NCBI RefSeq assembly: GCF_001029105.3
Contig: NZ_CP011807.3
Coordinates: 4,588,001 to 4,652,000 of the forward strand
Source: Pandoraea faecigallinarum
GTDB taxonomy: Bacteria; Pseudomonadota; Gammaproteobacteria; Burkholderiales; Burkholderiaceae
Length of the DNA: 64,000 bases
Direction: 5' to 3'
Below are positions 26,480 to 44,357 of the stretch, one piece after another (the stretch's first letter is position 1; each line of letters begins with the position of its first letter). The position numbers and the translations under genes were made by a program. The notes beneath the pieces are model-generated. The model was not told where the DNA came from and ran no database searches. It saw only the letters and a program-made list of their open reading frames with translations.

Positions 26480-26541
26480 ATTCGCCGTCTTCCACACTGC
26501 ATTCAAGCGCAATGTTCCTGAACAAGAAACGGAGTCTTAGC

Positions 26542-26586
26542 GTGATCGACCGGGGGGCCTGGCCCTGGCGACGCTGGTCCTGCTGA
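26542..26586 (+). CDS. trpL: Trp leader peptide of trpE (attenuator peptide)
   Basis: A 14-codon ORF starting GTG 26542, MIDRGAWPWRRWSC, with Trp codons at positions 7, 9 and 12 (26560, 26566, 26575). GGAG (26531-26534) is seven bases before the GTG. An in-frame ATG at 26512 would give a 24-residue version without a good ribosome site. Three Trp in 14 residues, directly upstream of trpE, is the hallmark of transcription attenuation: the ribosome stalls on Trp codons when charged tRNA-Trp is scarce. Alternative pairings downstream are listed separately. Confidence 0.8.
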   Translation: MIDRGAWPWRRWSC

Positions 26587-26640
26587 ACCCTTCCCAAGGG
26601 GTGGCCGGGACCGCCGGAGTTCGTCTTCGGCAACCCGTTT
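26574..26640 (+). promoter_or_regulatory. Attenuator-like hairpins upstream of trpE
   Basis: Possible exclusive pairings: GGTCC (26576-26580) with GGACC (26608-26612), enclosing the small hairpin CCCTT/AAGGG (26588-26600); CCGG (26605-26608) with CCGG (26614-26617); and GCCGGAG (26613-26619) with CTTCGGC (26625-26631), seven pairs followed by AACCCGTTTCTT. The last is the terminator candidate, though its T-run is weak. The remaining 250 bases to trpE show nothing that I can name. Confidence 0.5.
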
Positions 26641-26887
26641 CTTGCATCGTTGTTGTTCCCAAGAAGTCATTGATCGGCGCACCGTTTCCCGTTTCCCGCG
26701 GCGTACCGATTCGTCGAGACACATCGCAGCTTGCTGTTGCTCGCATCGCCCATGCGCGCGCGTTCGCTGCGGCTCGACGTGGGTCAGCACACCCGCCTCC
26801 CCGACACGACTCAGGTATTCTCAACGCCAATCCACGCCGATTCTGCGGGACCGCCCGCCGGCAACAAACCTGCAGGCAGAGTGCATC

Positions 26888-28393
26888 ATGACCGAACTCG
26901 AATTCAAATCGCTGGCCAATCAAGGCTTTAATCGCATCCCGTTGATCGCCGAGGCCTTTGCCGATCTCGACACGCCGCTCTCGCTCTATCTGAAGCTGGC
27001 GCAGGGCGACAGGCGCGGCGCCAACACCTTCCTGCTTGAATCCGTCGTCGGGGGCGAGCGCTTCGGCCGTTACTCTTTCATCGGTCTGTCGGCGCGCACA
27101 CTGCTGCGCAGCTTCGGTCCGAAAACCGAAGTCGTGCGCGACGGCACGGTCGTCGAGACCCACGAGGGCGATCCGCTCGAATTCATCACCCAGTTCCAGG
27201 CGCGCTTCAAAGTGGCGCTGCGCCCGGGCATGCCGCGTTTTTGCGGCGGCCTCGCCGGCTACTTCGGCTACGACGCCGTGCGCTATATCGAAAAGAAACT
27301 CGCGCACACCACGCCGCGCGACGATCTGAATCTGCCCGACATTCAATTGCTGCTCACGGAAGAACTCGCCGTGATCGACAATCTGACGGGCAAGCTCTAT
27401 CTCATCGTCTACGCCGATCCCACGCAGCCTGAAGCCTATTCGAAGGCGCGTCTGCGTCTGCGTGAACTGCGCGCCCGGTTGAAAGCGCCGGTCGACGCCC
27501 CCGTCACCTCGGGCAGCGTACGCACCGAGACTTTCCGCGAATTCGCCAAGCCGGACTATCTGGCCGCCGTCGCCAAAGCCAAGGAGGCCATTGCCGCCGG
27601 CGAACTGATGCAGGTGCAGGTCGGCCAGCGCCTCATCAAGCCGTATCGCGACGCCCCGCTCTCGCTCTACCGCGCGCTGCGCTCGCTCAACCCGTCGCCG
27701 TACATGTACTTCTACAACTTCGGTGATTTCCAGGTCGTCGGCGCTTCGCCCGAGATCCTCGTGCGTCAGGAACGTCGCCAGACGCCGGACGGCGAGCAGG
27801 AGATCGTGACGATTCGGCCGCTGGCCGGCACACGCCCGCGCGGTGCGACGCCCGAGCGCGACGCCGAACTGGCGAAGGAGTTGCTTGGCGACCCGAAGGA
27901 AATTGCCGAACACGTCATGCTCATCGATCTGGCGCGCAACGATGTGGGCCGTATTGCGCAGACGGGCACCGTCGAAGTGACCGACAAGATGATCATCGAG
28001 AAATACTCGCACGTGCAGCACATCGTAAGCTCGGTGGAAGGTCGCCTGCAACCGGGGCTGTCGAACATCGACGTGCTGCGCGCCACCTTCCCGGCCGGCA
28101 CGCTCACCGGCGCGCCGAAGGTTCGCGCCATGGAACTCATCGATGAACTGGAGCCGGTCAAGCGCGGCCTGTACGGCGGCGCCGTCGGGTATCTGTCGTT
28201 CGGCGGCGAAATGGATGTGGCCATCGCGATTCGCACGGGCGTCGTCAAGGACGGCAATCTGTATGTGCAGGCAGCGGCTGGCATTGTGGCCGACTCGGTG
28301 CCCGAATCCGAATGGCAGGAGACGGAAAACAAGGCCCGCGCCGTGCTACGCGCCGCCGAGCAGGTGCAGGACGGACTCGACGCCGAGTACTGA
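26888..28393 (+). CDS. trpE: Anthranilate synthase component I
   Basis: 501 residues. Chorismate-binding enzyme making anthranilate, with ammonia from TrpG. The N-terminal feedback site is visible (TFLLESVVGGERFGRYSFIG), then PDYLAAVAKAKEAIAAGELMQVQVGQRL, PSPYMYFYNFGDFQVVGASPEILVR, IRPLAGTRPRGATPERD, HVMLIDLARNDVGRIAQTG, FPAGTLTGAPKVRAMELIDELEPVKRGLYGG. ATG 26888 is the standard start; a frame open further upstream is untranslated leader. The gene has its own Trp leader peptide and its own terminator, and its usual partners trpG-trpD-trpC are about 16 kb away at 44.4 kb. Confidence 0.97.
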   Translation: MTELEFKSLANQGFNRIPLIAEAFADLDTPLSLYLKLAQGDRRGANTFLLESVVGGERFGRYSFIGLSARTLLRSFGPKTEVVRDGTVVETHEGDPLEFITQFQARFKVALRPGMPRFCGGLAGYFGYDAVRYIEKKLAHTTPRDDLNLPDIQLLLTEELAVIDNLTGKLYLIVYADPTQPEAYSKARLRLRELRARLKAPVDAPVTSGSVRTETFREFAKPDYLAAVAKAKEAIAAGELMQVQVGQRLIKPYRDAPLSLYRALRSLNPSPYMYFYNFGDFQVVGASPEILVRQERRQTPDGEQEIVTIRPLAGTRPRGATPERDAELAKELLGDPKEIAEHVMLIDLARNDVGRIAQTGTVEVTDKMIIEKYSHVQHIVSSVEGRLQPGLSNIDVLRATFPAGTLTGAPKVRAMELIDELEPVKRGLYGGAVGYLSFGGEMDVAIAIRTGVVKDGNLYVQAAAGIVADSVPESEWQETENKARAVLRAAEQVQDGLDAEY

Positions 28394-28501
28394 TGCATCC
28401 CGGTGTGCTCGTCCCGGTGCACCGTTGCACCAATGTGAAGCACGTTGCCGTTTGAAACGCGACAGCACCACGCATATTGCATGCATGTGAAGCCATCGCC
28501 G

Positions 28502-28541
28502 AAAGGCCTCGAATCGATGCTCCAGTCGATTCGGGGCCTTT
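28502..28541 (+). terminator. trpE terminator
   Basis: Sixteen paired positions: AAAGGCC-t-CGAATCGA and TCGATTCG-g-GGCCTTT around an eight-base loop, followed by GTTGATTT. It lies 108 bases after the trpE stop, so trpE is transcribed alone. Confidence 0.85.
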
Positions 28542-28643
28542 GTTGATTTAGCACAACCGTTCGCTTTTTTCGACCACTCCGGTATACGCCAATTGACGTC
28601 ACCCGCGATATAGTTAGGTGTCCGTCGGGAGGTCGAAGCTTCT

Positions 28644-30278
28644 ATGGCGAAACCATGCAATCCACGTATGCGTTCCGGCGCCGCGAATACCCATGCGACG
28701 CGCCGGGCACCCATTGCCCCCACAAAGTCTGTCACCGCCGTCAGCGGTATCGCGGCCGCGGGGATAGCTATCCTGCTCGGCGGCTGTATGTCGATGGCGC
28801 CCACGTACGAGCGCCCAGCCGCGCCTGTCGCCAATATCTGGACGTCCGACGCCGGCCCTTCATCGGTCACGCCGGCCACGCCGTCCACGGTCGCCCCCCA
28901 GCCGGCATCCGCCCTCGACTGGCGCGAGTACTTCGCCGACCCGCAGTTGCGCAGTCTCATCGAGACCGCGCTGGCCAACAACCGCGACTTGCGCGTCGCA
29001 CTCGCGCGTGTGGAGCAGGCGCGCGCGGTGTATGGCATTCAACGCGCCGATCTCTTCCCGTCGGCGGGCATCGGCGCAAGCGGCACACGTCAGCGCCTGC
29101 CCGGCGACCTGAGTCTCACCGGCAACCCCTACATCAGCAGCCAGTATCAGGTCGGTCTGGGGCTATCGACGTGGGAGCTGGACTTCTGGGGGCGCATCCG
29201 CAATCTGAAAGACGCCGCGCTCGACGATTACCTGGCGTCCGACGCGTCGCGCCGGGCGCTTGAACTGAGCCTGATCTCGCAAGTCGCGCAGACGTGGCTG
29301 AGTCTTCGCGAATACGACGAGCGCATTGCTCTCGCGCAGCAGACCGTCGACAGCCGCGCCGAATCGTTGCGGATCTTTACGCGGCGAGAACAGGTCGGGT
29401 CGACGTCGAAACTCGATCTCACCGAAGTCACTACGCTCTGGCAGCAGGCGCGCGCGCTCGTCACACAGCTCCAGCAGCAACGCGCCGCGCAGGCGCATGC
29501 GTTGCAGGTGCTCGTCGGCATACCCATCGACACCTCGCCGCAGGCGCTTGACCGCATGGCCGACGACGCCAGTCTCATGCGTGATCTCGACCCCGGCCTG
29601 CCCTCGTCGCTGCTCGAAGACCGCCCCGACATCATTGCAGCCGAATATCAACTGCGCGCCGCGCACGCGAATATCGGCGCGGCGCGTGCGGCGTTCTTTC
29701 CGCAGATCACACTGACCGGCTCCGTCGGCACGGCGAGCAGCGCGCTCGATGGCCTGTTCAAGGCGGGCAGCGCCGCATGGTCGTTCACGCCGAGCATCAA
29801 CCTGCCGATCTTTCAGGGCGGGCGTCTCGTGAACAATCTCGATCTGGCCGAAGCGCGCCGCGTGGAGTCGGTCGCGAATTACGAGAAGACGATTCAGGGC
29901 GCATTCCGCGACGTGGCTGACGCCCTGAGCGCACGCCGATGGCTGGCCGATCAGGTGACGATCCTGCAAGCGACGCAGGACGCACAGGCCGAGCGCGCGC
30001 GTCTGGCAAAACTGCGTTACGACCACGGTGCGGCGGCATTCCTCGAAGTGCTCGACGCCCAACGCGATCTCCTCGCCATCGAACAACAGACGGTTCAGAC
30101 CCGCCGCGCGCTGCTCTCGGCACGGGTATCGCTCTACGCGGCGCTCGGCGGTGGCAGCCGCCTCATGCCCGCGGCCGGCGTCCCTGCCGGTCCGTTCGCG
30201 CGCACGCCGCGCGTTGTCGAACCGACACCTGCCGCACCGGCGGCCAACACCCCGAACACAGCGCAGACCGTCCAATAA
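28644..30278 (+). CDS. Outer-membrane efflux lipoprotein (NodT/OprM family channel)
   Basis: 544 residues. The N-terminal signal ends in lipobox LGGC followed by [18 protein letters not shown], standard for NodT-type outer-membrane factors. Two OEP repeats follow with long coiled-coil helices; conserved pieces are [98 protein letters not shown] and [21 protein letters not shown]. It forms the trimeric outer-membrane duct of a tripartite exporter. GGAGGT lies ten bases before the ATG. The adaptor gene follows after 19 bases, so the channel is dedicated to this ABC pump. The C-terminal tail is Pro/Ala-rich. Confidence 0.94.
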
Positions 30279-30297
30279 ATTCAAGAGGTCACAAGAC

Positions 30298-31371
30298 ATG
30301 ACGCTTCCCAACGCCAAGAAACTCGTTCCAGCCCTCGTCATACTCGTTGTGATCGCACTGGGCTGGTATGGCTGGAAGACCTACAGCAACGCCGGTCCGG
30401 GCGACGGCTTCGCCAGCGGCAACGGGCGTATCGAAGCGACGGAAGTCGATGTCGCGACAAAGATGGCCGGACGTGTCGAAGCCATCTACGTGCGCGAGGG
30501 CGACTTCGTCAAGGCAGGTCAGGTCCTCGCCAGGATGCAGATCGACACGCTCAATGCGCAGCGCGACGAAGCGCGTGCGCAATACCAGCAGGCCGTGACG
30601 AATGTCGCGGCGATTCAGGCCCAGGCAGCCGCGCGTCTGTCGGACAAGGCGACGGCACAGGCGAATGTCGCCGCACGCGAAGCCGAACTCGACGCTGCCC
30701 GGCGCCGGCTCGCGCGCTCCGAAACGCTCTCGAAGGAGGGCGCATCGTCGGTGCAGGAACTCGACGACGACCGCGCGCGCGTGCGCAGTACCCAGGCCGC
30801 CGTGACCGCCGCCAAGGCGCAAGTCGCGGCGGCGCAGTCCGCCGTCGAGGCAGCCAACGCACAGGTCACCGGCTCGAAGTCCACGGTCGAAGCCGCGCAG
30901 GCCACCATCAACCGGATCGAAGCCGACATCACGGATAGCGAACTCAAGGCCCCGCGCGACGCTCGCGTGCAGTACCGCGTGGCACAACCGGGCGAGGTGC
31001 TTGCCGCCGGCGGCAAGGTGCTCAACCTCGTCGACCTGTCCGATGTGTACATGACGTTCTTCCTGCCCGAAGCCGTCGCCGGACGCCTCGCCATGGGCGC
31101 CGAAGCGCGCATCGTGCTCGACGCCGCGCCGCAGTTCGTCATTCCCGCGAGCATCTCGTTCGTCTCGAGCACCGCGCAGTTCACGCCGAAGACCGTGGAA
31201 ACGGAAAGCGAGCGCCAGAAGCTGATGTTCCGCGTGCGTGCTCAAATCGCGCCCGAACTGCTGCAACAGCATCTGAAACTCGTGAAGACCGGCCTGCCCG
31301 GGGTCGCGTGGGTGAAGACCGACAGCAAGGCCGAATGGCCGGCCCAATTGCGCACGAAGCTGCCGCAGTGA
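30298..31371 (+). CDS. Periplasmic adaptor, HlyD/YhiI family
   Basis: 357 residues with one N-terminal membrane anchor ([20 protein letters not shown]). Biotinyl-lipoyl halves [29 protein letters not shown] and [31 protein letters not shown] flank a long Ala-rich coiled-coil hairpin (about residues 75-195) that should dock on the outer-membrane channel. The beta-barrel part contains [25 protein letters not shown]. It resembles E. coli YhiI, partner of the RbbA and YhhJ proteins. AGAGGT precedes ATG 30298. It links the inner-membrane ABC complex with the channel gene upstream. Confidence 0.93.
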
Positions 31372-31381
31372 GCCGTGCATC

Positions 31382-34195
31382 ATGACGCTCCCGCCCCCCG
31401 CTCCCCGCTCGCCTGATGGCGCCCCGCGCGCGCCTGCGCAGCACGCGCCACCCGTCGTCCACGTAGCGGGCGTCACGCTGAAGTACGGCAGCAAGACCGT
31501 CGCGCTGGACAACGTCTCGATCGACATTCCGGCCAATTGCATGGTTGGGATGATCGGCCCGGACGGTGTGGGCAAATCGACGCTGCTCTCGCTGATCGCC
31601 GGGGCGCGCGCCGTGCAGACGGGTACTGTCGAGGCGCTGGGCGGCGACATGGCGAGCAAGGCGCACCGGGAACGGGTGTGCCCGCGCATTGCCTACATGC
31701 CGCAAGGGCTGGGCAGGAACCTCTATCCGACACTCTCCGTCGAGGAAAACCTGCAATTCTTCGCGCGTCTGTTCGGCCACGACGCCGTCGAGCGCCGTCG
31801 GCGCATCGACGACCTGACCCGCAGCACCGGTCTGCATCCGTTCCTGGACCGGCCGGCCGGCAAGCTCTCGGGCGGCATGAAGCAGAAGCTCGGTTTGTGC
31901 TGCGCACTGATCCACGACCCCGATCTGCTGATTCTTGACGAGCCGACCACCGGCGTGGACCCGCTCGCCCGTGCGCAGTTCTGGGACCTCATTGCCCGCA
32001 TCCGCCGCGAGCGTCCGACCATGAGCGTGATCGTGGCCACGGCATACATGGACGAGGCGCAGCGCTTCGACTGGCTCGTCGCCATGGACGCAGGCAAGGT
32101 ACTCGCGACCGGCACGCCTGCCGAACTGCTCGCCCGCACACGCCGGGACAGCCTCGAAGCGGCTTTCATCGACTTGCTGCCGGACGAGAAGAAGCGCGGC
32201 TACGAGCCGGTCGTGATCCCTGCCCTGCACATCGACGAACACACGGAGATCGCCATCGAGGCGAAAGGGCTGACGATGCGCTTCGGCGATTTCGTGGCCG
32301 TCGATCATGTGGACTTCCGCATTCGTCGCGGCGAGATCTTCGGCTTTCTCGGCTCGAACGGATGCGGCAAGTCGACCACGATGAAGATGCTCACCGGTCT
32401 GCTTCAGGCGAGCGAAGGACAGGCGTGGCTGTTCGGCCACGAAGTCGATCCCAAGGACATCGATACGCGACGCCGTGTGGGCTATATGTCGCAGGCCTTC
32501 TCGCTCTATACCGAGCTGACGGTGCAGCAGAATCTCGTGCTCCATGCACGGCTGTTCCACGTGCCGGAAGCCGACGTCGAGGCCCGCGTCGCCGAAATGG
32601 TGCGGCGTTTCGATCTGGCGGAAGTTCTCGACGCCTTGCCCGACAGCATTCCGCTGGGCATGCGTCAGCGTCTTTCGCTCGCCGTGGCGATGGTGCACAA
32701 GCCCGAATTGCTGATCCTCGACGAGCCGACCTCGGGTGTCGATCCTGTGGCACGCGACAACTTCTGGCGTCTGCTCGTCGAGCTCTCGCGCCGGGACCGG
32801 GTGACGATTTTCATCTCGACGCACTTCATGAACGAAGCCGAGCGCTGCGACCGCATCTCGCTGATGCACGCAGGCAAGGTGCTCGTCTCGGATCCCCCCG
32901 CGAAGATCACGAAGGACAAGGGCGCGCATACGCTCGAACAGGCGTTCATCGAATATCTCGTCGAGGCTGGCGGCGGGACACCGCAAGCGCCCGAAACGGC
33001 CAACGCGGCGAAGACCGCCCCCGCGGCGCACGCGGATCAGGCGAATCAAGGGGACCGGGCGCACCGCAAGGGTTTTTCGCCGGGGCGCATGATCAGCTAC
33101 CTCTGGCGCGAGGCGCTGGAACTGCAACGCGACCCGGTGCGCGCCACGCTCGCGCTCGTCGGCTCGCTCGTGCTGATGCTCGTGATGGGGTACGGCATCA
33201 GCATGGACGTGGAAGACCTGCGCTACGCCGTGCTCGATCGCGATCAGACGACGCTCAGTCAGAACTACGCGCTCAATATCGCCGGTTCGCGCTACTTCAT
33301 CGAACAGCCGCCCATTACCGATTACAACGACATGGATCGCCGTTTGCGCGACGGTGAACTGTCGCTCGCCATCGAGATACCGCCGGGCTTTGCGCGCGAC
33401 GTCTCCCGCGGCAAGGCCGTGCAGATCGGCGCATGGATCGACGGCGCGATGCCGACGCGCGCGGAGACCGTACAAGGCTACGTCCAGGGCATGCATCAGA
33501 ACTGGCTCGCCGATCAGTCGCTGCGACGGCTCGGCGTGAGTCCCACGTCGTCGCTCGACATCGAGACACGCTTTCGCTACAACCCCGACGTCAAGAGCCT
33601 GCCGGCGATGGTGCCCGCCGTGATCCCGCTGCTTCTGCTGATGCTGCCCGCCATGCTCACCGCCCTGTCGGTCGTGCGCGAGAAGGAGATGGGATCGATC
33701 CTGAATCTGTACGTCACGCCTGTCACACGCACCGAATTTCTGATCGGCAAGCAGATTCCGTACGTGGCGCTCGCGATGCTCAACTTCCTGCTCATGGCGC
33801 TGCTCGCCGTAACGTTGTTCGGCGTTCCCATCAAGGGAAGCTTCCTGACGCTCATCACCGCCGTCTTCATATTCAACGTGGTCGCAACGGGCATCGGCCT
33901 GCTGGCGTCCACTTTCACCCGCAGTCAGATCGCGGCCCTGTTCTTCACGATGATCGGTACGATGATTCCGGCCGTGCAGTTTGCCGGGATGATTACGCCG
34001 GTGCCGTCGATGGAGGGCTCGGGCCGGTTCATCGGCGAGATCTATCCGGCGACTTACATGCTCATCATCAGCCGTGGCGTCTTCAACAAGGCCCTCGGCT
34101 TCGGGGATCTGGGCAGCGCCTTCTGGCCGATGCTCATGGCCGTGCCCGTCATACTGGGCACCACGATCCTGCTGCTCAAGAAACAGGACAAATGA
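31382..34195 (+). CDS. rbbA: ABC exporter, two ATPase domains fused to a permease (RbbA/YhiH type)
   Basis: 937 residues: ATPase domain 1 (about 25-270; Walker [10 protein letters not shown], signature LSGGMKQK, Walker [14 protein letters not shown]), ATPase domain 2 (about 295-540; Walker [10 protein letters not shown], Walker [14 protein letters not shown]) and a C-terminal ABC-2 permease (about 575-937) with a large periplasmic loop and five or six membrane helices. The second domain has IPLGMRQRL where LSGGQ is expected, a departure also known in E. coli RbbA. E. coli RbbA is described as a ribosome-associated ATPase, but the yhiI-rbbA-yhhJ gene order and permease domain point to export. 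Substrate unknown. The adaptor gene ends ten bases before it. Confidence 0.93.
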
Positions 34196-35466: not shown

Positions 35467-35549
35467 CGCTCGCGGCCCGGCGGCATCTCCGTCGCCCCCC
35501 ATCGCGGTGTTCGCCGACCCTGTCATGCCGGATTTGTGAGGTCATTGCC

Positions 35550-38072
35550 ATGCCTGCCAAGTCGTCTGCCGCACACGAGCGCCGCCCCTCGCGTCGCGCC
35601 TTGCCTGGCGCCTCCCATCGCAGCAGCGATGCGGCGCATGCCTCCCACACCGACGACACAAATGCCGCGCACGGCGCTCCATGGCTGGCGAATCTGCCGT
35701 GGATGGCCGCCGCCGCCGAATACGCCGTGGACGCCTGGCAGCGCAGCGTACTGTTTGCCGACGTCATGCGCCAGCGCGGCAATCAATATCAGGAACATCT
35801 CGCCGAATCCGCACCGAATGTGCTGGATTTCGCGGCCGAAGTCATTCTCGATGCGCACACACTGCCGCGCCCGTGCAACTACTGCCTGATGCGTATCCTC
35901 GCGCCGGAGGACACCCCGACGCTGCCCAACGCGCGTCCGTTCGTGGTAGTCGACCCGCGTGCGGGGCACGGCCCGGGCATCGGCGGCTTCAAGCCCGACA
36001 GCGAGATCGGCGCGGCGTTGCGCGCCGGGCATCCGTGCTATTTCGTGGGTTTTCTCCCCGATCCGGTCCCGGGGCAGACGGTGGAAGACGTGATGCGCGC
36101 CGAGGCCGCGTTTCTGGAGAAAGTGATTTCCCTGCACCCGGAGAGCGCCGGCAAACCCGCCGTCATCGGCAATTGTCAGGCGGGCTGGCAGGTATTGATG
36201 ACCGCGGCCATGCGCCCGGAACTGTTCGGTCCGATCATCGTGGCGGGTGCGCCGGTGTCGTACTGGGCCGGCTGGCGCGGGCGCAATCCCATGCGCTATT
36301 CGGGCGGCCTGCTCGGCGGCAGTTGGCTCACCGCGCTCACGAGCGATCTCGGCGACGGTCGTTTCGACGGCGCATGGCTCGTCGAGAACTTCGAGAATCT
36401 CGACCCGGCGAACACGCTCTGGCGCAAGAAGTACCATCTGTACGCGAACGTCGACACGGAGGCGCCGCGCTATCTCGGTTTCGAGAAATACTGGGGCGGG
36501 CACGTCTTCCTGAACGCGCAGGAAATGCAGTACATCGTCGACAACCTGTTCATCGGCAATCGGCTCACGAGCGCCGAACTGATTACCAGCGACGGTATCC
36601 GTCTCGACTTGCGCAATATCCGCTCGCCCATCGTAGTGTTCTGCTCGTATGGCGACAACATCACGCCCCCGCCGCAGGCGCTCGGGTTCGTCACCGACAT
36701 GTATCGCGACGACGAGGAAGTCCTCAGTCACGATCAGACCATCGTGTACGCCACGCACGACAGCATCGGCCACCTCGGCATCTTCGTGTCGAGCAGCACC
36801 GGGCGCAAGGAACATCGCAAGTTCGTCAACAACATCGATCTGATCGACGTGCTGCCCGCGGGTATCTATCAGGCGCAAATCGCCGACAAGACGCGCGACA
36901 CCGTGCACAGCGAACTGGCCGAAGGCGACTACGTGATGTCGATCCAGCGGCGCAGTGTCGAAGACGTACGCGCCATCGTGCAACCCGACCCGGAGAGCGA
37001 CCGGCGATTCGCGGCAGTGGCCCATCTGTCGGACATCCACCTCGGTTTGTATCGCAGCCTCATGCAACCATGGGTGCGCGCGATGGTGACGCCAACCTCG
37101 GCGTACTGGATGCGCCTGCTGCACCCGCTGCGCGTGAACTACGAACTGTGGTCGGATCGCAATCCGTTTGCCGTGCCCTTCGCCGGGAAAGCCGGGCGTG
37201 TGCGCGAGACGCGGCGTCCGGTGTCGCCCGACAATCCGTTTCTTGCGCTGGAGCATGCAGTGTCGAGCGCCATCGAGCAATCGCTGAACTTCTATCGCGA
37301 CGTGCGTGACGACGGCTACGAGAAGGCGTTCGAATTCATCTACGGTCAACCGTGGGTACAGGCACTCGCCGGACTGCATGGCAGCGATGGCGCGGCGGTG
37401 CGCGTGCATCCGGGCACCTCACCCGAACACGTGGCATTCGTGAAGGAAGCGCTCGAACTGCGCCGCCACGAGGTGCGCCAGGGCGGCGTGCTCGAAGCGG
37501 GCATTCGCGCGCTGCTCTGGGTGCATCGTTTGCATGGCGAGGCTGACGAGCGCCAGTTCAATCTCGCGCGGTCGTTGCCGCGAGGCGACGCGCAGATTTC
37601 CATCGAACGCTTTCGCGAGATCATCCGTCGCCAGGCCGGGCTGCTGCGCATGGCGCCGAATGCGGCCATGGACGCGATTCCGGGCATGCTGGCGCAGGCC
37701 TCGCCCGAGCATATTCGCCTCGTGGCGAACGCTGTCAGGGATCTGAGTTTCGCCGTACCGCTGGAGGATGGCGAGCAAAACGATCTGGACCGGGTGCTCG
37801 CGGTCTTCGAGCGGGCCGCGGAAAAACGCGAGGGCCAGATGTCCGGGCCGTTGGAGCGTCAGGCGAAAGCGTCATCGCAACGCCCGGCGCGCGCATCGCG
37901 AAAAACGAGCGCAGGCACAAAGTCGTCCGCGAAGGCCGCGACAGGTGCGACAGGTGCGACAGCCAAATCGACGCGTGCCAAATCGATGCGCGCCAAACCG
38001 GCGAGCGTCAAAGCTGCGACTGCCGGGGCGGCCGGGACCGCGCGTCGCCCGGCAACGAAGAAACCGGCATGA
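35550..38072 (+). CDS. DUF3141 protein with PhaC-like alpha/beta-hydrolase triad
   Basis: 840 residues. After a disordered N-terminus, residues 55-450 resemble polyhydroxyalkanoate synthases: nucleophile elbow VIGNCQAGW with Cys 209, acid in CSYGDNITPP (Asp 369), base in HDSIGHLGIF (His 408), all in correct order. The second half (about 450-790) is helical and unlike PhaC. The last 60 residues are a Lys/Ala/Thr-rich basic tail (AKAATGATGATAKS) like histone H1 or the granule protein PhaF. Substrate not established. GTGAGGT precedes ATG 35550. It follows the exporter genes by 83 bases and may be cotranscribed; it ends ten bases from the converging kinase gene. Confidence 0.8.
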   Translation: MPAKSSAAHERRPSRRALPGASHRSSDAAHASHTDDTNAAHGAPWLANLPWMAAAAEYAVDAWQRSVLFADVMRQRGNQYQEHLAESAPNVLDFAAEVILDAHTLPRPCNYCLMRILAPEDTPTLPNARPFVVVDPRAGHGPGIGGFKPDSEIGAALRAGHPCYFVGFLPDPVPGQTVEDVMRAEAAFLEKVISLHPESAGKPAVIGNCQAGWQVLMTAAMRPELFGPIIVAGAPVSYWAGWRGRNPMRYSGGLLGGSWLTALTSDLGDGRFDGAWLVENFENLDPANTLWRKKYHLYANVDTEAPRYLGFEKYWGGHVFLNAQEMQYIVDNLFIGNRLTSAELITSDGIRLDLRNIRSPIVVFCSYGDNITPPPQALGFVTDMYRDDEEVLSHDQTIVYATHDSIGHLGIFVSSSTGRKEHRKFVNNIDLIDVLPAGIYQAQIADKTRDTVHSELAEGDYVMSIQRRSVEDVRAIVQPDPESDRRFAAVAHLSDIHLGLYRSLMQPWVRAMVTPTSAYWMRLLHPLRVNYELWSDRNPFAVPFAGKAGRVRETRRPVSPDNPFLALEHAVSSAIEQSLNFYRDVRDDGYEKAFEFIYGQPWVQALAGLHGSDGAAVRVHPGTSPEHVAFVKEALELRRHEVRQGGVLEAGIRALLWVHRLHGEADERQFNLARSLPRGDAQISIERFREIIRRQAGLLRMAPNAAMDAIPGMLAQASPEHIRLVANAVRDLSFAVPLEDGEQNDLDRVLAVFERAAEKREGQMSGPLERQAKASSQRPARASRKTSAGTKSSAKAATGATGATAKSTRAKSMRAKPASVKAATAGAAGTARRPATKKPA

Positions 38073-38082
38073 CCACCGCCGA

Positions 38083-39444
38083 CTATCGCGCGCAAATGTC
38101 CTTCGACGGTGCCGGCCGGGGCGAGGCCGGCACGTCCAGCCGCGCGAGCAACCCGCCGCCCTCTCGCGGTGCAAACGTCAACGTTCCATCGAAACGCGCG
38201 ACGATCGCCCGCACGATGGAAATCCCGAGGCCGGCGCCCTCGCCTCGCCGGCGTCCCTGATCGCCGCGCCAGAAGCGCTGCCCCACCCTTGCGGTCTGCG
38301 CCGGCGCGAGTCCCGGCCCGCGGTCGGCCACTTCAATGCAGTAGCGCCGGTTCGCCTCGTGCGCATGCACCGTCACGCCGATCTCACTGCCCGGCGGCGA
38401 ATACCGAACCGCGTTGTCCACGAGGTTTCTCACCGCCGTGCCGAGCATCGAGCTGGGCAGGACGGATCCACTGTCTGCGCCCGACATCCGGAACGCGAAC
38501 CGATCGGTCTCTCCCCATTCGCTCAGCACGCCGGCGATTACGCTGCCCACGCACTCGCATTTGTCCTGCTCGTGCACCGGCGCCTCTGCGTGCGCCAGCG
38601 CCATCAACTGGTCGAGCGTGTGGCGCAGACGCTTCACGCCGGCACCGACCTGCTGCAAGGCGATTCTCGACGGCTCGCCTTGCGTCATCTGCGCGACCTG
38701 CAAGTGCGTGTCGATGGCCGTGAGCGGCGTACGAAGCTCATGGGCGGCACCATCGGTAAACGCACGCTGCCCCGCCAACGTCTTCGCCAGCCGGTCCTGC
38801 CATTCGTTCAGTGCCGCCACAACAGGTTTCAACTCGGTGGGCGCGCGTCCGATGTCGACCGGCGTCGTGTCGTCGGTTTGCTTGCGACGCAGGGTCATTC
38901 GCAGGGTATCGAGCGGTCGCAGCCCTCGCCCGATACCGATCCAAAGCGCCAGCAGGCCACCGACGACCGCGATCAGGAACGGCACGCCCGCCGCGCGCAG
39001 CATGTCGCGTGTGAGTGCCGCGCGCCGGTCCACGAGATCGGCCGTCATCACCTGATAGCCCGCGGCGTCCTGCAACACGTAGATGCGCCAGCGACGGCCG
39101 TCGATCTCCCGCGTGCTGAAGCCGACCGGCAATGCGAGCGACGCCGATTGCGGTCCTTCCCCGGTATGCGCGAGCACGGCCCCCTGCAACGAGCGGATTT
39201 CGCACGCGATACCCTCGCCCGCCCCCGCACGGAACACGCCGGCCCAGTCGCGCTCCCCGGTCGACGGGGAAAACGCGGCGCGTGCCATCAGGCCGGACAC
39301 CATCGTCGCAGACATGGCAAGGCGCTCGTCGAGTGCCTCGTCAAGGCGCTCGCGCACGCCTTGCATCATCCAGCCCGCCGCCGCCATCCACAGCACGGTC
39401 AGCGCGACCCCGGCAATGAGGACCGCACGCAGCCGAAGACTCAT
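38083..39444 (-). CDS. Sensor histidine kinase, QseC/OmpR-partner type
   Basis: 453 residues; start at 39444, which overlaps the regulator stop (ATGA) and has GGAG eight bases upstream. Two membrane helices (about 7-27 and 155-175) bound a periplasmic sensor region of about 125 residues without a named domain. A HAMP-like linker (LRPLDTLRMTLRRKQTDD) leads to the phospho-acceptor box FTDGAAHELRTPLTAIDTH and the ATPase domain: N-box GTAVRNLVDNAVRYSPPG, G1 VADRGPGLAP, G2 GEGAGLGISIV. It presumably senses an envelope signal; the divergent dsb operon suggests thiol or metal stress. Confidence 0.92.
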   Translation of the reverse strand: MSLRLRAVLIAGVALTVLWMAAAGWMMQGVRERLDEALDERLAMSATMVSGLMARAAFSPSTGERDWAGVFRAGAGEGIACEIRSLQGAVLAHTGEGPQSASLALPVGFSTREIDGRRWRIYVLQDAAGYQVMTADLVDRRAALTRDMLRAAGVPFLIAVVGGLLALWIGIGRGLRPLDTLRMTLRRKQTDDTTPVDIGRAPTELKPVVAALNEWQDRLAKTLAGQRAFTDGAAHELRTPLTAIDTHLQVAQMTQGEPSRIALQQVGAGVKRLRHTLDQLMALAHAEAPVHEQDKCECVGSVIAGVLSEWGETDRFAFRMSGADSGSVLPSSMLGTAVRNLVDNAVRYSPPGSEIGVTVHAHEANRRYCIEVADRGPGLAPAQTARVGQRFWRGDQGRRRGEGAGLGISIVRAIVARFDGTLTFAPREGGGLLARLDVPASPRPAPSKDICAR

Positions 39445-40106
39445 GACAGGCTCCATCCCAGGCGGTAACCGAGGCCCCGCGCTGTCTGGATAGCGTCGCA
39501 CCCCAGCTTGCGTCGCACATTGTGAATATGGACATTCAGCACGTTGCTGTTGACGCGCTCGGTCATGCCGTACAGGCGCACGTGCAGCATGTCGGGGGAT
39601 AGCCATCGGCCGCGGCTGCTCGCGAGATAGGCGAGCAGGTCGACTTCGCGGCGGGAGAGTTCGACGGGCACGCCGTTGAGCCACGCGAGCCCGCTCGCCG
39701 GATCGAGCCGCAGTGGACCGGCCTCGATGATCTGTACGGCCCGCCCATGCGTGCGGCGCACCAGCGCATGCAAACGCGCCGCAAGTTCGCGCAGATCGAA
39801 CGGCTTGACCATGTAGTCGTCCGCACCGGCATTGAGTCCCGCGATGCGGTGCTCGATGCCGTCGCGCGCCGTCAGGATGAGCACCGGTACATCGGGCTCG
39901 ACGGCACGTACGCCGGCGATGATGCCCAGACCGTCGCCGTCGGGCAAACCGAGATCGAGCACCAGCGCATCGAAGGTATTTTCGGCATGGGCGGCCATCG
40001 CGGCCTCGCCGCAGGCGCTCGCTTCGACGTGAATTCCCAAAGTCGAGAGCCCCGCAACGATGCCGTTCGCAATCGGAGGATCGTCTTCTACCAGCAGTAC
40101 TCGCAT
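39441..40106 (-). CDS. Response regulator, OmpR family
   Basis: 221 residues; start at 40106 with AAGAGGCG upstream. Receiver domain (1-115): acid pocket EDD, phospho-acceptor in ALVLDLGLPDGDG (Asp about 51), Thr in LILTARD, Lys in YMVKPFDLREL. Winged-helix DNA-binding domain (about 125-221): VELSRREVDLLAYLASSRGRWLSPDMLHVRLYG, VNSNVLNVHIHNVRRKLG, IQTARGLGYRLGW. It overlaps the kinase gene by four bases. A direct repeat GTTAA with an 11-base period lies in the 159-base gap to dsbD, as expected for head-to-tail OmpR-family binding. Confidence 0.94.
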   Translation of the reverse strand: MRVLLVEDDPPIANGIVAGLSTLGIHVEASACGEAAMAAHAENTFDALVLDLGLPDGDGLGIIAGVRAVEPDVPVLILTARDGIEHRIAGLNAGADDYMVKPFDLRELAARLHALVRRTHGRAVQIIEAGPLRLDPASGLAWLNGVPVELSRREVDLLAYLASSRGRWLSPDMLHVRLYGMTERVNSNVLNVHIHNVRRKLGCDAIQTARGLGYRLGWSLS

Positions 40107-40199
40107 TGATTCACGCCTCTTTCTGGCCTGGTTCGGGCACGCCGACATGTTACGGATAACGTGCATGCCGGTCAGGCGACGTTTCGCGCGACGGCGCGC

Positions 40200-40215
40200 G
40201 TTAACTTTCAGTTAA
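40200..40215. promoter_or_regulatory. Candidate response-regulator box before dsbD
   Basis: GTTAA-ctttca-GTTAA, two direct half-sites spaced 11 bases start to start. A further symmetric element GTTA-cgga-TAAC lies at 40149-40160. Both are in the divergent gap between the regulator gene and dsbD. Confidence 0.45.
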
Positions 40216-40265
40216 TCGTTCTCGACCACGCTCTGTCTTGTTTCGATTGATTCAGGGAGGACAGA

Positions 40266-42218
40266 TTGCGACGCCGAATCGTTTTCATCTTTGTGATTTT
40301 GCTCGGCGCACTCGGTGCGCTTCGCGTGCCCGGGGCGCTGGCCGCATTGCCATGGCAGTCCGGCGCGCAGGTGCTCGACGCCGCGCAGGTGCTCCGCCTG
40401 GATGCACCGCGCCATGAGAACGGCGACATTGTCGTCGGCAGCCGAATTGCCAAGGATCACTACGTTTATCGCCATTCACTGCGTGTAGAGGACGCAGCGG
40501 GAAAGCCGGTCGACTTCACGCTGTCGGACGGCAAGCCCCACGTCGACGAGTTCTTCGGCGAATCCGAGATCTACTACGACGACCGTCTGCGGCTGAAGTT
40601 TCATGCACCGCTAACGGACTACGTCGTGCTGCATTGGCAGGGATGTGCGCAGGCAGGCATCTGTTATCCGCCGCAGACCATCCGGATCGCGCTATCGGGC
40701 GCTGCCGCGCCCGCGCAATACGGCGATGCCTCGTCGGCACTCGCGGCGCTGTCGGCACTGGCGGCATCCGGCGAGGCTGCCGAACCCGCGATGCCAGGCA
40801 GCGACGCGATAGCCCCTGCCACGCCGGCCGTCCCCACGCCAAACGGCGCGGCGGCTGCCACGGCCACCGTACCGCTGGCCGCCGATCAGGAAGCGGCCAA
40901 TCAACTCGCCACGCTCGATCCCATTGCGGCCAAGCTGTTGTTCTTCGGCCTCGGGCTGATGCTGGCCTTCACACCGTGCGTGCTGCCGATGGTGCCCATC
41001 GTGTCCACGATGATCGTGGGCAACCGGCCTACGCCGATGCGCGCGCTGGCCCTGTCGTCGGCATATGTGCTGGCCATGGCGCTCACTTATGCCAGCGTGG
41101 GCGTCGCGGCAGCGCTTGCGGGAGCGAACCTGCAGGCGACGCTGCAATCGCCGTGGCTCCTGAGCGCCTTCGCCGCGCTCTTTCTGGTGCTGGCCGCATC
41201 GCTGTTCGGCATGTTCGAGATTCGTCTGCCGTCGTTCATCGCGAATCGTCTCGACGCCGCCGGACGCCATCGCACCGGCGGCACACTGACCGGCGCGGCG
41301 GTGCTGGGCTTCCTCTCCGCGTTGCTCGTCGGCCCCTGCATGACCGCGCCGCTGGCAGGCGCCCTGCTTTACATCGGCCAGACCGGCAATGCGTGGATGG
41401 GGGGCGGCGCACTCTTCGCGATGGGCCTCGGCATGGGCATGCCGCTGCTGGCCATCGCACTTTTCGGGGCGCGTATTCTGCCGCGTCCGGGGGCATGGAT
41501 GGTGCGCGTGCGCATCGCGTTCGCTTACGTGATGGTCGGCATGGCGATCACGATGCTCGGCCGTTTCCTTCCCGGGCATGTCAGTCTCGCCCTGTGGGGC
41601 GCACTGGGCCTCGGGGTGGCCGTCGGCGTGGCCGGTTGGGCGTGGGCGATTCGTGGAACGCCGGCAGGCTGGGCGGTGGGCTTCATGTCGGCGCTGATCG
41701 GACTGTGGTCCGTGATGTGGCTCGTTGGCGCGGCATCGGGCAGCGACTCGTTGATGCGCCCGCTGGCGCAGGCCGGCGCCGTCACCGGCGGGCCGGGCGA
41801 TGCGCGCTCGCGCAGCGCACGCCCGGTCGACTACGTGCGCGTCAAATCGGCGCACGACGTGGAGGCCCGCATCGCGCAAGCCGCCGGCAAAGGACAATGG
41901 ACGCTCATCGACTTCTATGCCGATTGGTGCGTGAGTTGCCACGTCATCGAACGCGACGTGTTCGGCGATCCGGAGGTCGCCGCGCGTCTGGCGCAGATGC
42001 AGGTGCTGCGCCCCGACGTCACGAAGCATGACGCCGTCGACCAGGCGCTGATGAGACGCTGGAGCGTGCTCGGTCCTCCAACGCTCATCCTCGTCGATGC
42101 CTCCGGCAAGGAGGTGCGCGAGCATCGCATGGTCGGCGAGCTGAATGCCCAGACGTTCCTGAGCCGTCTCGATGCAGCGCAGGCGGCGCAGACCGCAAAC
42201 GCGGCGCAGGCATCATGA
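40266..42218 (+). CDS. dsbD: Thiol:disulfide interchange protein DsbD
   Basis: 650 residues; starts with TTG 40266, with GGGAGGA five bases upstream and no better ATG. Signal peptide, then the periplasmic DsbD-alpha domain with its Cys pair region (QGCAQAGICYPPQTIRIAL). A long Ala/Pro linker (about 145-205) leads to the eight-helix membrane domain, with Cys in GLGLMLAFTPCVLPMVPIV and LVGPCMTAPLAGALLY. The C-terminal thioredoxin domain has FYADWCVSCHVIERDVFG (Cys about 556 and 559). It moves electrons from cytoplasmic thioredoxin to periplasmic thiol proteins, here presumably the TlpA- and DsbG-type proteins encoded next. Overlaps the next gene by four bases. Confidence 0.94.
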   Translation: MRRRIVFIFVILLGALGALRVPGALAALPWQSGAQVLDAAQVLRLDAPRHENGDIVVGSRIAKDHYVYRHSLRVEDAAGKPVDFTLSDGKPHVDEFFGESEIYYDDRLRLKFHAPLTDYVVLHWQGCAQAGICYPPQTIRIALSGAAAPAQYGDASSALAALSALAASGEAAEPAMPGSDAIAPATPAVPTPNGAAAATATVPLAADQEAANQLATLDPIAAKLLFFGLGLMLAFTPCVLPMVPIVSTMIVGNRPTPMRALALSSAYVLAMALTYASVGVAAALAGANLQATLQSPWLLSAFAALFLVLAASLFGMFEIRLPSFIANRLDAAGRHRTGGTLTGAAVLGFLSALLVGPCMTAPLAGALLYIGQTGNAWMGGGALFAMGLGMGMPLLAIALFGARILPRPGAWMVRVRIAFAYVMVGMAITMLGRFLPGHVSLALWGALGLGVAVGVAGWAWAIRGTPAGWAVGFMSALIGLWSVMWLVGAASGSDSLMRPLAQAGAVTGGPGDARSRSARPVDYVRVKSAHDVEARIAQAAGKGQWTLIDFYADWCVSCHVIERDVFGDPEVAARLAQMQVLRPDVTKHDAVDQALMRRWSVLGPPTLILVDASGKEVREHRMVGELNAQTFLSRLDAAQAAQTANAAQAS

Positions 42219-43060
42219 TCGCCCTCGGCCCGTTCCCCATGAACGCGGCGGCGGTCGCGGCAGCGGCGATCTTTGCCTGGCTCGCCGCCCGATACCTCCT
42301 GCGCAAGACAGATGCCCCATCGCGCCGCGCCGGCGCCGCCATCTTGCTCGACGCCGTATTCGTCGGCCTGTTCGCCGCCCGCGCGGTTTACGTGCTGCGC
42401 TGGTGGCCCGATTACGCGGCGTCGCCGCTGTCCATCGTCGCCATCGGCGATGGGGGCTTCGACAGGCTCGGCGGCCCCGTCGCGGCGCTCGCATGGGCGC
42501 TGTGGCGCACCCGGCGCCACCCGATACGCAGGCGTCCGATAGTCGCCGGGATGCTGGCGGGCGTCGCGGTGTGGGGCGCCTTGCAGGCAGCGCTGACGTT
42601 GGCGCTGCGCGAAGCTCCGCCGTTACCTGCGCTCACGTTGTCCGACATTCGTGGTCGTCCCATGCCCCTGGAGAGGCATCTCGGCAAGCCCATCGTGATG
42701 AATCTCTGGGCGAGTTGGTGCCCGCCGTGCCGTCGTGAAATGCCGGTGCTCGCCCAGGCGCAGACGGACTATCCGGACGTGCAGTTCCTGATGATCAATC
42801 AGGGCGAGGCGGCACATACGGTGGCAGCGTTCGTGCAATCGCAGGGACTGACGTTCGACCATCTGCTGCTCGATCCCGATTCCCAAACCATGCGCGCCGC
42901 GCAGACGCGCGCCCTGCCCACCACGCTGTACTTCGATCCGACGGGTCGTCTGGTCGATGCGCATCTGGGCGAGCTGAGCGCCGCGGGTCTGCGCGACGTG
43001 ATTCACCGCAAGCTCCGGCAACCTTCGCCATTCCCGGCGTCTTCCCCACGAAAGGAGTAA
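42215..43060 (+). CDS. TlpA-family thiol reductase with an Lgt-like membrane N-terminus
   Basis: 281 residues. Residues 1-135 contain about four hydrophobic helices; the opening MIALGPFPMNAAAVAAAAIFAW and RRPIVAGMLAGVAVWG resemble the start of prolipoprotein diacylglyceryl transferase, a known but unexplained fusion. Residues 140-281 are a periplasmic TlpA/ResA thioredoxin domain with NLWASWCPPCRREMPVL (Cys about 169 and 172) and cis-Pro segment ALPTTLYFDPTG. It is tethered to the inner membrane and probably reduced by DsbD. ATGA overlap with dsbD; dsbG starts three bases after its stop, so this is one tight operon. Comparable in layout to ScsD of the Scs copper-tolerance system. Confidence 0.88.
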   Translation: MIALGPFPMNAAAVAAAAIFAWLAARYLLRKTDAPSRRAGAAILLDAVFVGLFAARAVYVLRWWPDYAASPLSIVAIGDGGFDRLGGPVAALAWALWRTRRHPIRRRPIVAGMLAGVAVWGALQAALTLALREAPPLPALTLSDIRGRPMPLERHLGKPIVMNLWASWCPPCRREMPVLAQAQTDYPDVQFLMINQGEAAHTVAAFVQSQGLTFDHLLLDPDSQTMRAAQTRALPTTLYFDPTGRLVDAHLGELSAAGLRDVIHRKLRQPSPFPASSPRKE

Positions 43061-43063
43061 CTC

Positions 43064-43945
43064 ATGTCGGTTCGCAAGACCCTCGCTTTTACCGTCGGCT
43101 CACTGGCTGCACTCTTCCTCTCGTCATCCGGCATGGCAGCGGACGCGGTCTCGCCCGCCCATGTTGCTGCGCCCGCCACCACCGCCCTCACCGCTGCACC
43201 CGCCGCTGCACCCACCGCGCCCGTTGCATCCGGCACACTCGCCGCGTCGGCCACTGGCCCGGCCGTCGTGCAGGCACTGGCGCGCGAGGGCGTGACGGCG
43301 TTGCAGCCGTTCGACACGGGCGTCAAGGACCTGGCCGGATACGCCGGGCTGGCAGGACAGCAGCCGGTGGCGGTCTACGTGCTGCCCGACGGTAACGGCA
43401 TCGTCGGCACGCGCATCGGGGCGGACGGCAAGCCGCTCGACGTGGAGCGGGTGACGAAACTCATCGAGACGCCGCTGGGGGAAGCGATCTGGTCGAAGCT
43501 CGGCGCATCGCAGTGGGTGCAGGACGGAAAGAAGGACGCCCCGCGCATCGTCTACACGTTCGGCGACCCGAACTGCCCGTACTGCAACCGGTTCTGGGAA
43601 GCGGCGCGCCCGTGGGTCGATTCGGGAAAAGTGCAGTTGCGCCATGTGCTCGTGGCCGTCATCAAGGCGGACAGCGTGACCAAGGCTGCCGCCATTCTCA
43701 GCGCTTCGAATCCGTCTGCCGCCCTCACGCAGAACGAACAGAAGTTCAGGCAGGGAGGCATCAAGCCCGCGCGCAATGTCTCCAAGACCGTCGCGCAGAC
43801 GCTCCAGTCCCACCAGATGCTGATGGCCGAACTCGGTTTCCGGGGCACGCCGGGGATCGTCTACCGCAACGGCAAGGGGGTCGTGGAGCGCACCAACGGT
43901 ATGCCGCCGCCCGAGGCGCTAACCGCCATTCTGGGAGCGCGCTGA
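43064..43945 (+). CDS. dsbG: Periplasmic disulfide isomerase/chaperone, DsbG type
   Basis: 293 residues. Signal peptide ends near SSGMAADA, followed by an Ala/Pro/Thr-rich linker (about 27-65) that is longer than in E. coli DsbG. A small dimerisation domain (QALAREGVTALQPFDTGVKDLAGYAG) precedes the thioredoxin domain with FGDPNCPYCNRFW (Cys about 171 and 174) and cis-Pro loop FRGTPGIVYRNGKG. AAGGAG precedes the ATG. It reduces or isomerises wrong disulfides, or protects single Cys residues from oxidation, with DsbD as electron donor. Last gene of the operon. Confidence 0.92.
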   Translation: MSVRKTLAFTVGSLAALFLSSSGMAADAVSPAHVAAPATTALTAAPAAAPTAPVASGTLAASATGPAVVQALAREGVTALQPFDTGVKDLAGYAGLAGQQPVAVYVLPDGNGIVGTRIGADGKPLDVERVTKLIETPLGEAIWSKLGASQWVQDGKKDAPRIVYTFGDPNCPYCNRFWEAARPWVDSGKVQLRHVLVAVIKADSVTKAAAILSASNPSAALTQNEQKFRQGGIKPARNVSKTVAQTLQSHQMLMAELGFRGTPGIVYRNGKGVVERTNGMPPPEALTAILGAR

Positions 43946-44156
43946 GCGGCAGCAGCGTTGGGTGACGAGCGGTCCGGCACGCCGTCCGGGCGCGATCCGG
44001 TTGCCGGCCCCGGGTAGCAGAATCGTCGAATGGCCCCCGCTATCCGGCGCACATTCTTGCGAGAAACGGGCGGATGACGCGCGAAACCGGCCGAATCGCC
44101 GCTTTTTGCGACACCCGCCCACGGCGTGCCGAAGATACTGCTACAATCGCCTCACT
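43946..44156. other. dsbG-trpL2 gap
   Basis: 211 bases without a gene. The only element that I can support is the TACAAT box just before the second Trp leader, listed separately. No clear terminator for dsbG is visible. Confidence 0.6.
44142..44147 (+). promoter_or_regulatory. -10 box of the trpGDC operon
   Basis: TACAAT at 44142-44147; no convincing -35. Transcription should start about 44154-44157, at or within three bases of the leader-peptide ATG at 44157. Confidence 0.5.
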
Positions 44157-44225
44157 ATGAAGTCGCATCAGTCTTCCTCCCTCCTCTGGTCGCCCCTGAC
44201 CGCTGCCCTGCGCTGGTGGCGGTAA
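44157..44225 (+). CDS. trpL: Trp leader peptide of trpGDC (second attenuator peptide)
   Basis: A 22-codon ORF with Trp at codons 11, 20 and 21, ending LRWWR-stop. It starts only nine bases after a TACAAT box, so the mRNA is probably leaderless; no ribosome site is present. Leaderless trpL is known for Sinorhizobium. The last two Trp codons and the stop lie inside a perfect hairpin GTGGCGG (44216-44222)/CCGCCAC (44227-44233), which a stalled ribosome would open. This ORF is unrelated in sequence to the trpE leader at 26542. Confidence 0.78.
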   Translation: MKSHQSSSLLWSPLTAALRWWR

Positions 44226-44302
44226 CCCGCCACGTCTATCTCATCCCCATAGCGCCCTCCCCCGCGGACCGCGAATTCCATGTGGGGGCATGCTCAGGGG
44301 GC
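44216..44302 (+). promoter_or_regulatory. Attenuator-like structures upstream of trpG
   Basis: Hairpin GTGGCGG-taac-CCGCCAC over the WW codons, then one C-tract (CCCCC, 44259-44263) that can pair with either of two G-tracts (44284-44288 or 44297-44301). Mutually exclusive pairings are expected of an attenuator, but no terminator with a proper T-run is seen before trpG, so control may act by Rho or on translation. Confidence 0.45.
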
Positions 44303-44357
44303 CATCGCAAATTCCACGCGTTCGACAATCTTTGTCACCAGACGAACAGGGACCATC

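Follow-up and report, generated by a model that had tools for sequence, protein, structure and literature searches.

Throughout the genus Pseudomonas, trpE is separated from trpGDC, and in Pseudomonas putida both are reportedly under attenuation, to go by the title of the 2001 article by Olekhnovich and Gussin (J Bacteriol 183:3256). In Escherichia coli, the leader trpL (Rfam family Trp_leader, RF00513) places a short open reading frame (ORF) with tryptophan (Trp) codons and competing RNA pairings before trpE. For Pseudomonas aeruginosa, the accessible part of a 3′-end study (PMC8297930) describes premature ends in the trpGDC leader. For Sinorhizobium, the accessible part of another report (PMC7298713) describes one attenuated trp operon out of three, with a released small RNA that acts on trpDC in trans; in Sinorhizobium meliloti, the leader RNA of this trpE attenuator (rnTrpL) begins at the ATG. 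Here, we describe two Trp-rich leader ORFs, one before trpE and the other, which we call L2, before trpGDC, in Pandoraea faecigallinarum. The window, that is, the whole stretch of DNA analyzed, comprises 64,000 nucleotides (nt) of contig NZ_CP011807.3 (positions 4,588,001–4,652,000) from a genome of 5.73 Mb in three contigs.

The locus is like that of P. putida in having separate trpE and trpGDC operons, both attenuated in that species according to the title, and unlike it in that the trpE/trpG split varies within the genus Pandoraea. Like E. coli trpL, it places before trpE a short ORF that contains Trp codons and is accompanied by competing pairings, but the trpE leader described here has 24 codons, an ATG without a Shine–Dalgarno sequence and a conserved N-terminus, and RF00513 gave no match above the gathering cut-off in the window or the genome. 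As far as the accessible part of PMC7298713 describes the trpL/rnTrpL/peTrpL system of S. meliloti, the two have a trpE attenuator in common, whereas in Pandoraea both halves of the operon have a cis leader of their own. A literature search for the trpE/trpGDC leader pair in this genus, covering top-ranked titles and abstracts and few subscription papers, found nothing, and the accessible parts of PMC2965389 and PMC5343134 contain nothing on either leader.

We consider it likely that the trpE and trpGDC transcripts are both under ribosome-mediated attenuation that senses Trp codons, trpE through the older leader and trpGDC through the younger L2, probably with the help of Rho. Judged from sequence, the trpE half is old in the family Burkholderiaceae and near-classical, while the trpG half is a lineage-specific addition that probably terminates transcription in a different way. 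We also put forward, tentatively, that L2 is a Rho-based Trp attenuator born within one genus around the time trpGDC became unlinked from trpE, with the result that a single tRNA signal would govern both subunits of the enzyme, each via a different termination machinery. A preliminary description of the window had proposed separate, unrelated Trp leaders on the two halves of the split operon, to be checked in relatives; there, the pair is conserved, the trpE leader in 86 of 98 family loci and L2 in 26 of 32 Pandoraea genomes. The same description called the arrangement unusual, which holds only in part given the title on P. putida and the Trp-rich ORFs before separated trpG genes in several other Burkholderiales. 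Dual attenuation is a known kind of arrangement, and what is new here is a second leader that is confined to one lineage and probably ends transcription by other means.

The leader of trpE

Both Trp-rich ORFs of the preliminary description are present, at 26542–26586 before trpE and at 44157–44225 before trpG, with the Trp codons where it had placed them. Its 14-codon trpE leader, which reads VIDRGAWPWRRWSC followed by a stop codon, exists as an ORF, but only as the 3′ portion of an open frame that reaches back to ATG 26512. This frame, the one shared in the family, has 24 codons (26512–26586, forward strand), reads MFLNKKRSLSVIDRGAWPWRRWSC before its stop codon and carries Trp codons at positions 17, 19 and 22. 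Its N-terminus, MFLN(K/R)KR (26512–26535), is preserved at the amino-acid level across family genera.

Family searches covered 120 genomes, from which 98 trpE loci were fetched and examined (180 of 187 planned regions were fetched). The frame, recognizable by MF, a basic stretch and A(W)(P)WR, occurs in the 86 loci mentioned above and in 2 of 49 trpE loci from other families of the order. The search pattern required ATG, F2, one of four residues at position 3 and W19, and the invariance of these positions is partly by construction. In the aligned family leaders, Trp17 is present in 85 of 85 and Trp22 in 78 of 85, an alignment that excludes G037 with its one-codon insertion (genomes and loci are given by our G and L numbers). 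The frame is missing from 12 family loci: those of G003, G032 and G053, of seven genomes that belong to one genus and of two from a further genus. Looser lists, which required only two Trp codons, yielded a single alternative version in the family, the degraded frame of G003. This reduced 1.2-Mb congener (locus L006) has adjacent trpE and trpG genes and a trpE leader decayed to a frame ending SFSWRQWLF.

The GTG with which the 14-codon version begins (26542–26544, forward strand) is codon 11 of the longer frame. Of 85 family leaders, 28 have GTG at codon 11. They all come from the genus Pandoraea (28 of its 31), and none of the 54 leaders from elsewhere in the family has it; we rejected GTG as the sole start for the family, as codon 11 is no start codon outside the genus. 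Within Pandoraea, GTG 26542 may be used as an additional start. All 28 genus leaders with GTG have a strong Shine–Dalgarno sequence before it (−6.1 kcal/mol), and none of the 86 leaders has one before the ATG at a pairing energy of −4.5 kcal/mol or lower (median +0.3, against −2.4 at random places). Translation from either start yields identical Trp codons.

Across 17 representatives, the ratio of nonsynonymous to synonymous changes (pN/pS) is 0.20 for codons 4–7 and 0.52 for codons 8–12; it is 0.15 for codons 2–7, where F2 and partly residue 3 are fixed by the search pattern. Since codons 4–7 change mostly silently, the N-terminus seems to be under selection as a peptide. This would be unexpected for a plain attenuator and suggests that the leader peptide has a function of its own.

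The alternative pairings that the preliminary description placed after each leader are largely borne out for trpE. On the forward strand, a 1:2 hairpin (GACCGG...CTGGTC, 26548–26579) encloses the Trp codons. It is followed by an antiterminator (26576–26612) that pairs GGTCC with GGACC and, inside, ACCCTT with AGGGGT, and by a putative intrinsic terminator (26606–26645), CGGG-ACC-GCCGGAG-TTCGT-CTTCGGC-AA-CCCG followed by TTTCTTGC. Compensatory changes, which it had named as a check, are found in the inner terminator stem: in 58 aligned leaders (the distinct ones among 72 leaders of 24 codons), 95.8% of the cells are paired and five of seven pairs have double changes. None of 500 shuffles matched either the pairing percentage or the covariation score and two matched the count of doubly changed pairs, the shuffles ignoring kinship among the sequences. 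Shifting the partner strand drops pairing to about 50% or less. At least five T in eight nt occur within 110 nt 3′ of the leader ORF in 80 of 86 leaders.

Folding was modeled with ribosomes at different positions in 21 of the 24 genus rows (G015, G023 and G025 were left out). The antiterminator has a probability of about 1.0 without a ribosome or with one at Trp17, which drops to 0 once the ribosome is at Trp19 or farther on. The outer terminator stem, which adjoins the U-rich tail, rises from 0 to 0.98 at Trp19 and stands at 0.77 at Trp22. On these predictions, a ribosome stalled at codon 17, the first for Trp, would leave the antiterminator formed, and a ribosome moving on would melt it and let the outer stem form beside the U-rich tail.

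Several results weigh against so simple a switch. The inner terminator stem also forms in the stalled state (0.996 at Trp17), and then weakens, with 0.80 at Trp22 and an average of 0.53 at the stop codon (0.001–0.999, depending on the genome), where the outer stem reaches only 0.45. A ribosome at Trp19 or Trp22 already yields the terminator, and in 22 Burkholderia-type sequences the terminator stem stays at 0.77–0.86 whatever the ribosome position, though the antiterminator switches. A simple terminator scan, which required an unbroken five-pair stem, found no site in the trpE leader region. Additionally, the covariation set is limited to leaders of 24 codons and leaves aside those with 28 codons (13 leaders) or 21 (one leader). 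We regard the switch as predicted rather than clean, and the trpE leader as close to a classical attenuator.

L2, the leader of trpGDC

The ORF before trpG has 22 codons (44157–44225, forward strand), reads MKSHQSSSLLWSPLTAALRWWR before its stop codon and carries Trp codons at positions 11, 20 and 21. Its 25-nt core is present as a single copy with no mismatch in 26 of the 32 Pandoraea genomes and, even with up to three mismatches allowed, is missing from all 366 other family genomes searched; no additional copy within three mismatches of the core turned up in the 398 genomes combined. Conservation is concentrated at the end of the ORF and behind it: 35 of 39 columns are invariant in codons 11–22 plus the stop codon and 40 of 46 in the following 46 nt, compared with 24 of 90 upstream.

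The two leaders share no sequence, as had been stated from the outset. Their similarity scores were reached by 191 of 200 shuffles for the local DNA alignment and by 459 of 500 for the peptides, and a duplication of one leader to give the other was rejected for this lack of similarity. A candidate third Trp leader, before trpB, was rejected because it overlaps the ORF preceding it, and the 500 nt that lead up to the aroFGH match contain no short ORF with two Trp codons.

An extended −10-like element, TGCTACAAT (44139–44147, forward strand), lies 9 nt 5′ of the L2 ATG in the window and 9 or 10 nt before it in all 26 genomes with L2; the transcript would therefore start within a few bases of the ATG. 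No Shine–Dalgarno sequence (pairing of −4.5 kcal/mol or lower) precedes L2 in any of these genomes. A motif, GCAGAATCGTCGA, at 44017–44029, about 130 nt 5′ of the L2 ATG, has close variants in the other genomes with L2, G013 and G016 included; it may be a site for a regulator or belong to a terminator.

Three features on the forward strand lie at the end of L2 or behind it. The L2 stop codon sits in the loop of a hairpin, GTGGCGG-TAAC-CCGCCAC (44216–44233), which is invariant in 26 of 26 genomes and hence offers no covariation evidence. Right behind the stop codon, and two codons after the end of the tandem Trp codons, begins a C-rich, G-poor stretch (44226–44270), a candidate Rho-loading site. 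A long imperfect hairpin between L2 and trpG (44244–44301) has no U-tract behind it.

In the 45 nt behind the L2 stop codon, C exceeds G by 18 (16–19 in all 26 genomes), a value that only 0.25% of 20,000 random 110-nt pieces of the window attain. The C excess of the trpE leader in the window is 4, and it is at least 15 in only 6 of 86 trpE leaders. No U-tract was found behind L2 in the 26 genomes, where at most five T occur in eight nt, and five in only four of them. In the same genomes, the predicted probability of hairpin 44244–44301 is equal for a ribosome stalled at Trp20/21 and one at the stop codon (0.79/0.79 and 0.87/0.87). A classical switch is thus unsupported for L2, and of the pairings first proposed behind it there remain hairpins that neither switch nor end in a U-tract.

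Rho prefers C-rich, G-poor RNA. The lack of a U-tract and of a fold switch, together with the C-rich, G-poor stretch 3′ of the stop codon, favors Rho-dependent termination, and suggests that this follows release of the ribosome, a stalled ribosome protecting the transcript. Separated from trpE, trpGDC would have its own younger leader behind its own promoter. When charged tRNA-Trp is scarce, translation of L2 would halt at the tandem Trp codons 20–21 beside the stop codon and transcription would continue. When it is plentiful, the ribosome would finish and leave, exposing the C-rich stretch, and transcription would end before trpG, probably through Rho. In E. coli tnaC, a ribosome held at the end of the leader ORF beside a Rho-loading region decides read-through. 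By analogy, a ribosome stalled on L2 beside a putative Rho site would set read-through; unlike in tnaC, the stall would come from scarce charged tRNA-Trp at Trp codons and have the opposite sign, and Rho is a presumed participant. We infer the Trp response of both leaders, the promoters, the role of Rho and an advantage in keeping the two subunits matched.

Some results on L2 count against this account. The consensus promoter scan, which also requires a −35 element, did not include the −10-like site, and the simple terminator scan found no site in the trpG leader region. The three codon positions of L2 vary equally, with no excess of silent changes; the constraint would therefore act on the RNA or the codons, and the variation gives no sign of selection on the peptide.

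Other explanations of the leaders have to be set beside attenuation of both transcripts with Rho acting at L2. L2 could itself be an intrinsic attenuator, with the U-tract-free hairpin 44244–44301 and an alternative pairing missed by the folds. The stem columns of this hairpin are conserved and its variable columns lie in the loop, three changed stem positions still pair (88:147, 96:139 and 98:137), and it forms with a probability of 0.79–0.87 with the ribosome near the stop codon; however, there is no U-tract, the probability does not depend on whether the ribosome has stalled or finished, and one pair is broken in 4 of 26 genomes. We regard this explanation as possible though doubtful. It is unlikely that L2 is instead an upstream ORF acting on trpG translation or mRNA stability rather than on transcription. 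L2 and trpG do lie within one short 5′ region, and a hairpin near the trpG start (GACAA/TTGTC) varies in a single pair, which among 26 genomes is doubly changed in two (T-A for A-T) and broken in four, its other four pairs being invariant. Against this, trpG has a good Shine–Dalgarno sequence in 25 of the 26, and no conserved pairing that hides it was found among the few candidates tried.

That L2 is a chance ORF or an artefact is extremely improbable. About 3% of shuffled upstream regions do give a short ORF with clustered Trp codons, but the core with the tandem Trp codons is free of mismatches in 26 of 26 genomes and Trp11 is also kept in all of them, a conservation that already contradicts chance. 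A role of the leader peptides in trans would have a precedent in peTrpL of Sinorhizobium, described in the accessible part of PMC7298713, and would fit the low pN/pS of trpE leader codons 4–7 relative to codons 8–12. RNA constraints could likewise suppress changes, though, and L2 has no excess of silent changes; we think such a role quite unlikely.

L2 and the trpE/trpG split within Pandoraea

In the window, rpe (25086–25766) and gph (25763–26479) lie before the trpE leader. They are followed by trpE (anthranilate synthase component I, 26888–28393; TIGR00564, 541 bits) and, after a block of other genes, by trpG (component II, 44358–44945; TIGR00566, 260 bits; the ATG start is present in the sequence), trpD (44985–46013; TIGR01245, 414 bits) and trpC (46037–46849; NF001373, 409 bits), these four all on the forward strand. 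The intervening block (28394–43950, strand not assigned) encodes, among others, an outer membrane efflux protein, a two-component system and DsbD, TlpA-like and DsbG proteins. The trpE–trpG stretch is variable in the genus and consists of either nothing or sets of ORFs of 6 to 16 kb.

In genomes with L2, trpE and trpG are 6.2–16.1 kb apart in 23 of 26, on two contigs in G017, and only 365–370 nt apart in G013 and G016, where L2 and its upstream region are present and the insertion is absent. Among the genomes without L2, trpG starts 2–85 nt after the trpE stop codon in G003, G015, G023 and G025, and in G029 it begins 8 nt past the last aligned trpE residue. The block is lacking in G003, G013, G015, G016, G023 and G025. 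A case that speaks against the association is G004, without L2, in which trpE and trpD are 29 kb apart and only an ORF with a single Trp codon precedes trpG. Because this genome sits inside the L2 clade in the tree, L2 would have been changed or replaced there.

The L2 clade has full support in the tree; as to the place of G013 and G016 within it, the split genomes form a single group in 44% and 40% of bootstrap trees (two trees). Most simply, L2 arose once, before the insertion or together with it. If it came before, G013 and G016 keep the intermediate state; if the two came together, both genomes lost the inserted genes.

Second leaders in other lineages

Clustered-Trp short ORFs before a separated trpG are not confined to Pandoraea. 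Of the 34 non-adjacent trpG loci that lie outside the genus, nine have one within 450 nt, against about 3% in shuffles, and over all non-adjacent family loci the figure is 35 of 61, of which 26 are L2. These counts exclude G042, G062, G078, G091, G100, G109 and G118, where the trpE–trpD gaps are 573–596 nt and trpG is adjacent. Three of the nine second leaders belong to one genus, and the clearest are those of G053, G075/G106/G115, G105 and G132. In the named collection, which consists of the best 80 loci of a larger list, 6 of 36 non-adjacent loci have such an ORF: Cupriavidus gilardii (with the peptide of G105), Thiomonas sp. FB-6, a Rubrivivax and a Burkholderiales metagenome-assembled genome, and the doubtful L197 and L211.

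Two results from other lineages count against the main reading. G055, G060 and G066 have genes between trpE and trpG and no clustered-Trp ORF before trpG, and we rejected the idea that a second leader accompanies each split; it is frequent rather than obligatory. Of nine other trpG leaders measured, four have a C excess of at least 15 and four have at least five T in eight nt. On these counts, the L2 pattern is not general among trpG leaders.

A similar trpG leader RNA is common to C. gilardii (L190), G105 and G075/G106/G115 (L097:9239–9450, L190:2678–2860 and L071:2382–2560). Five other sampled genomes of the genus of G105 (G033, G056, G074, G096 and G114) have adjacent trpE and trpG. A search for the source of this leader with a 31-nt pattern matched G075 alone in 149 genomes, a set without G105, G106 and G115, and a BLAST search with 150 nt, run without a positive control, matched none of 120 genomes. 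In six genomes of one family genus (L054, L068, L080, L087, L095 and L104), trpE and trpD are about 1.04–1.07 kb apart, though trpG apparently comes right after trpE.

Attenuators are mostly encountered in their finished form, and the genus Pandoraea offers close before-and-after states for the birth of one. It holds relatives without L2, in which trpE and trpG are adjacent, relatives with L2 and no insertion, and relatives with both. It also provides a testable case for the dose balance of a two-subunit enzyme after an operon has been broken.

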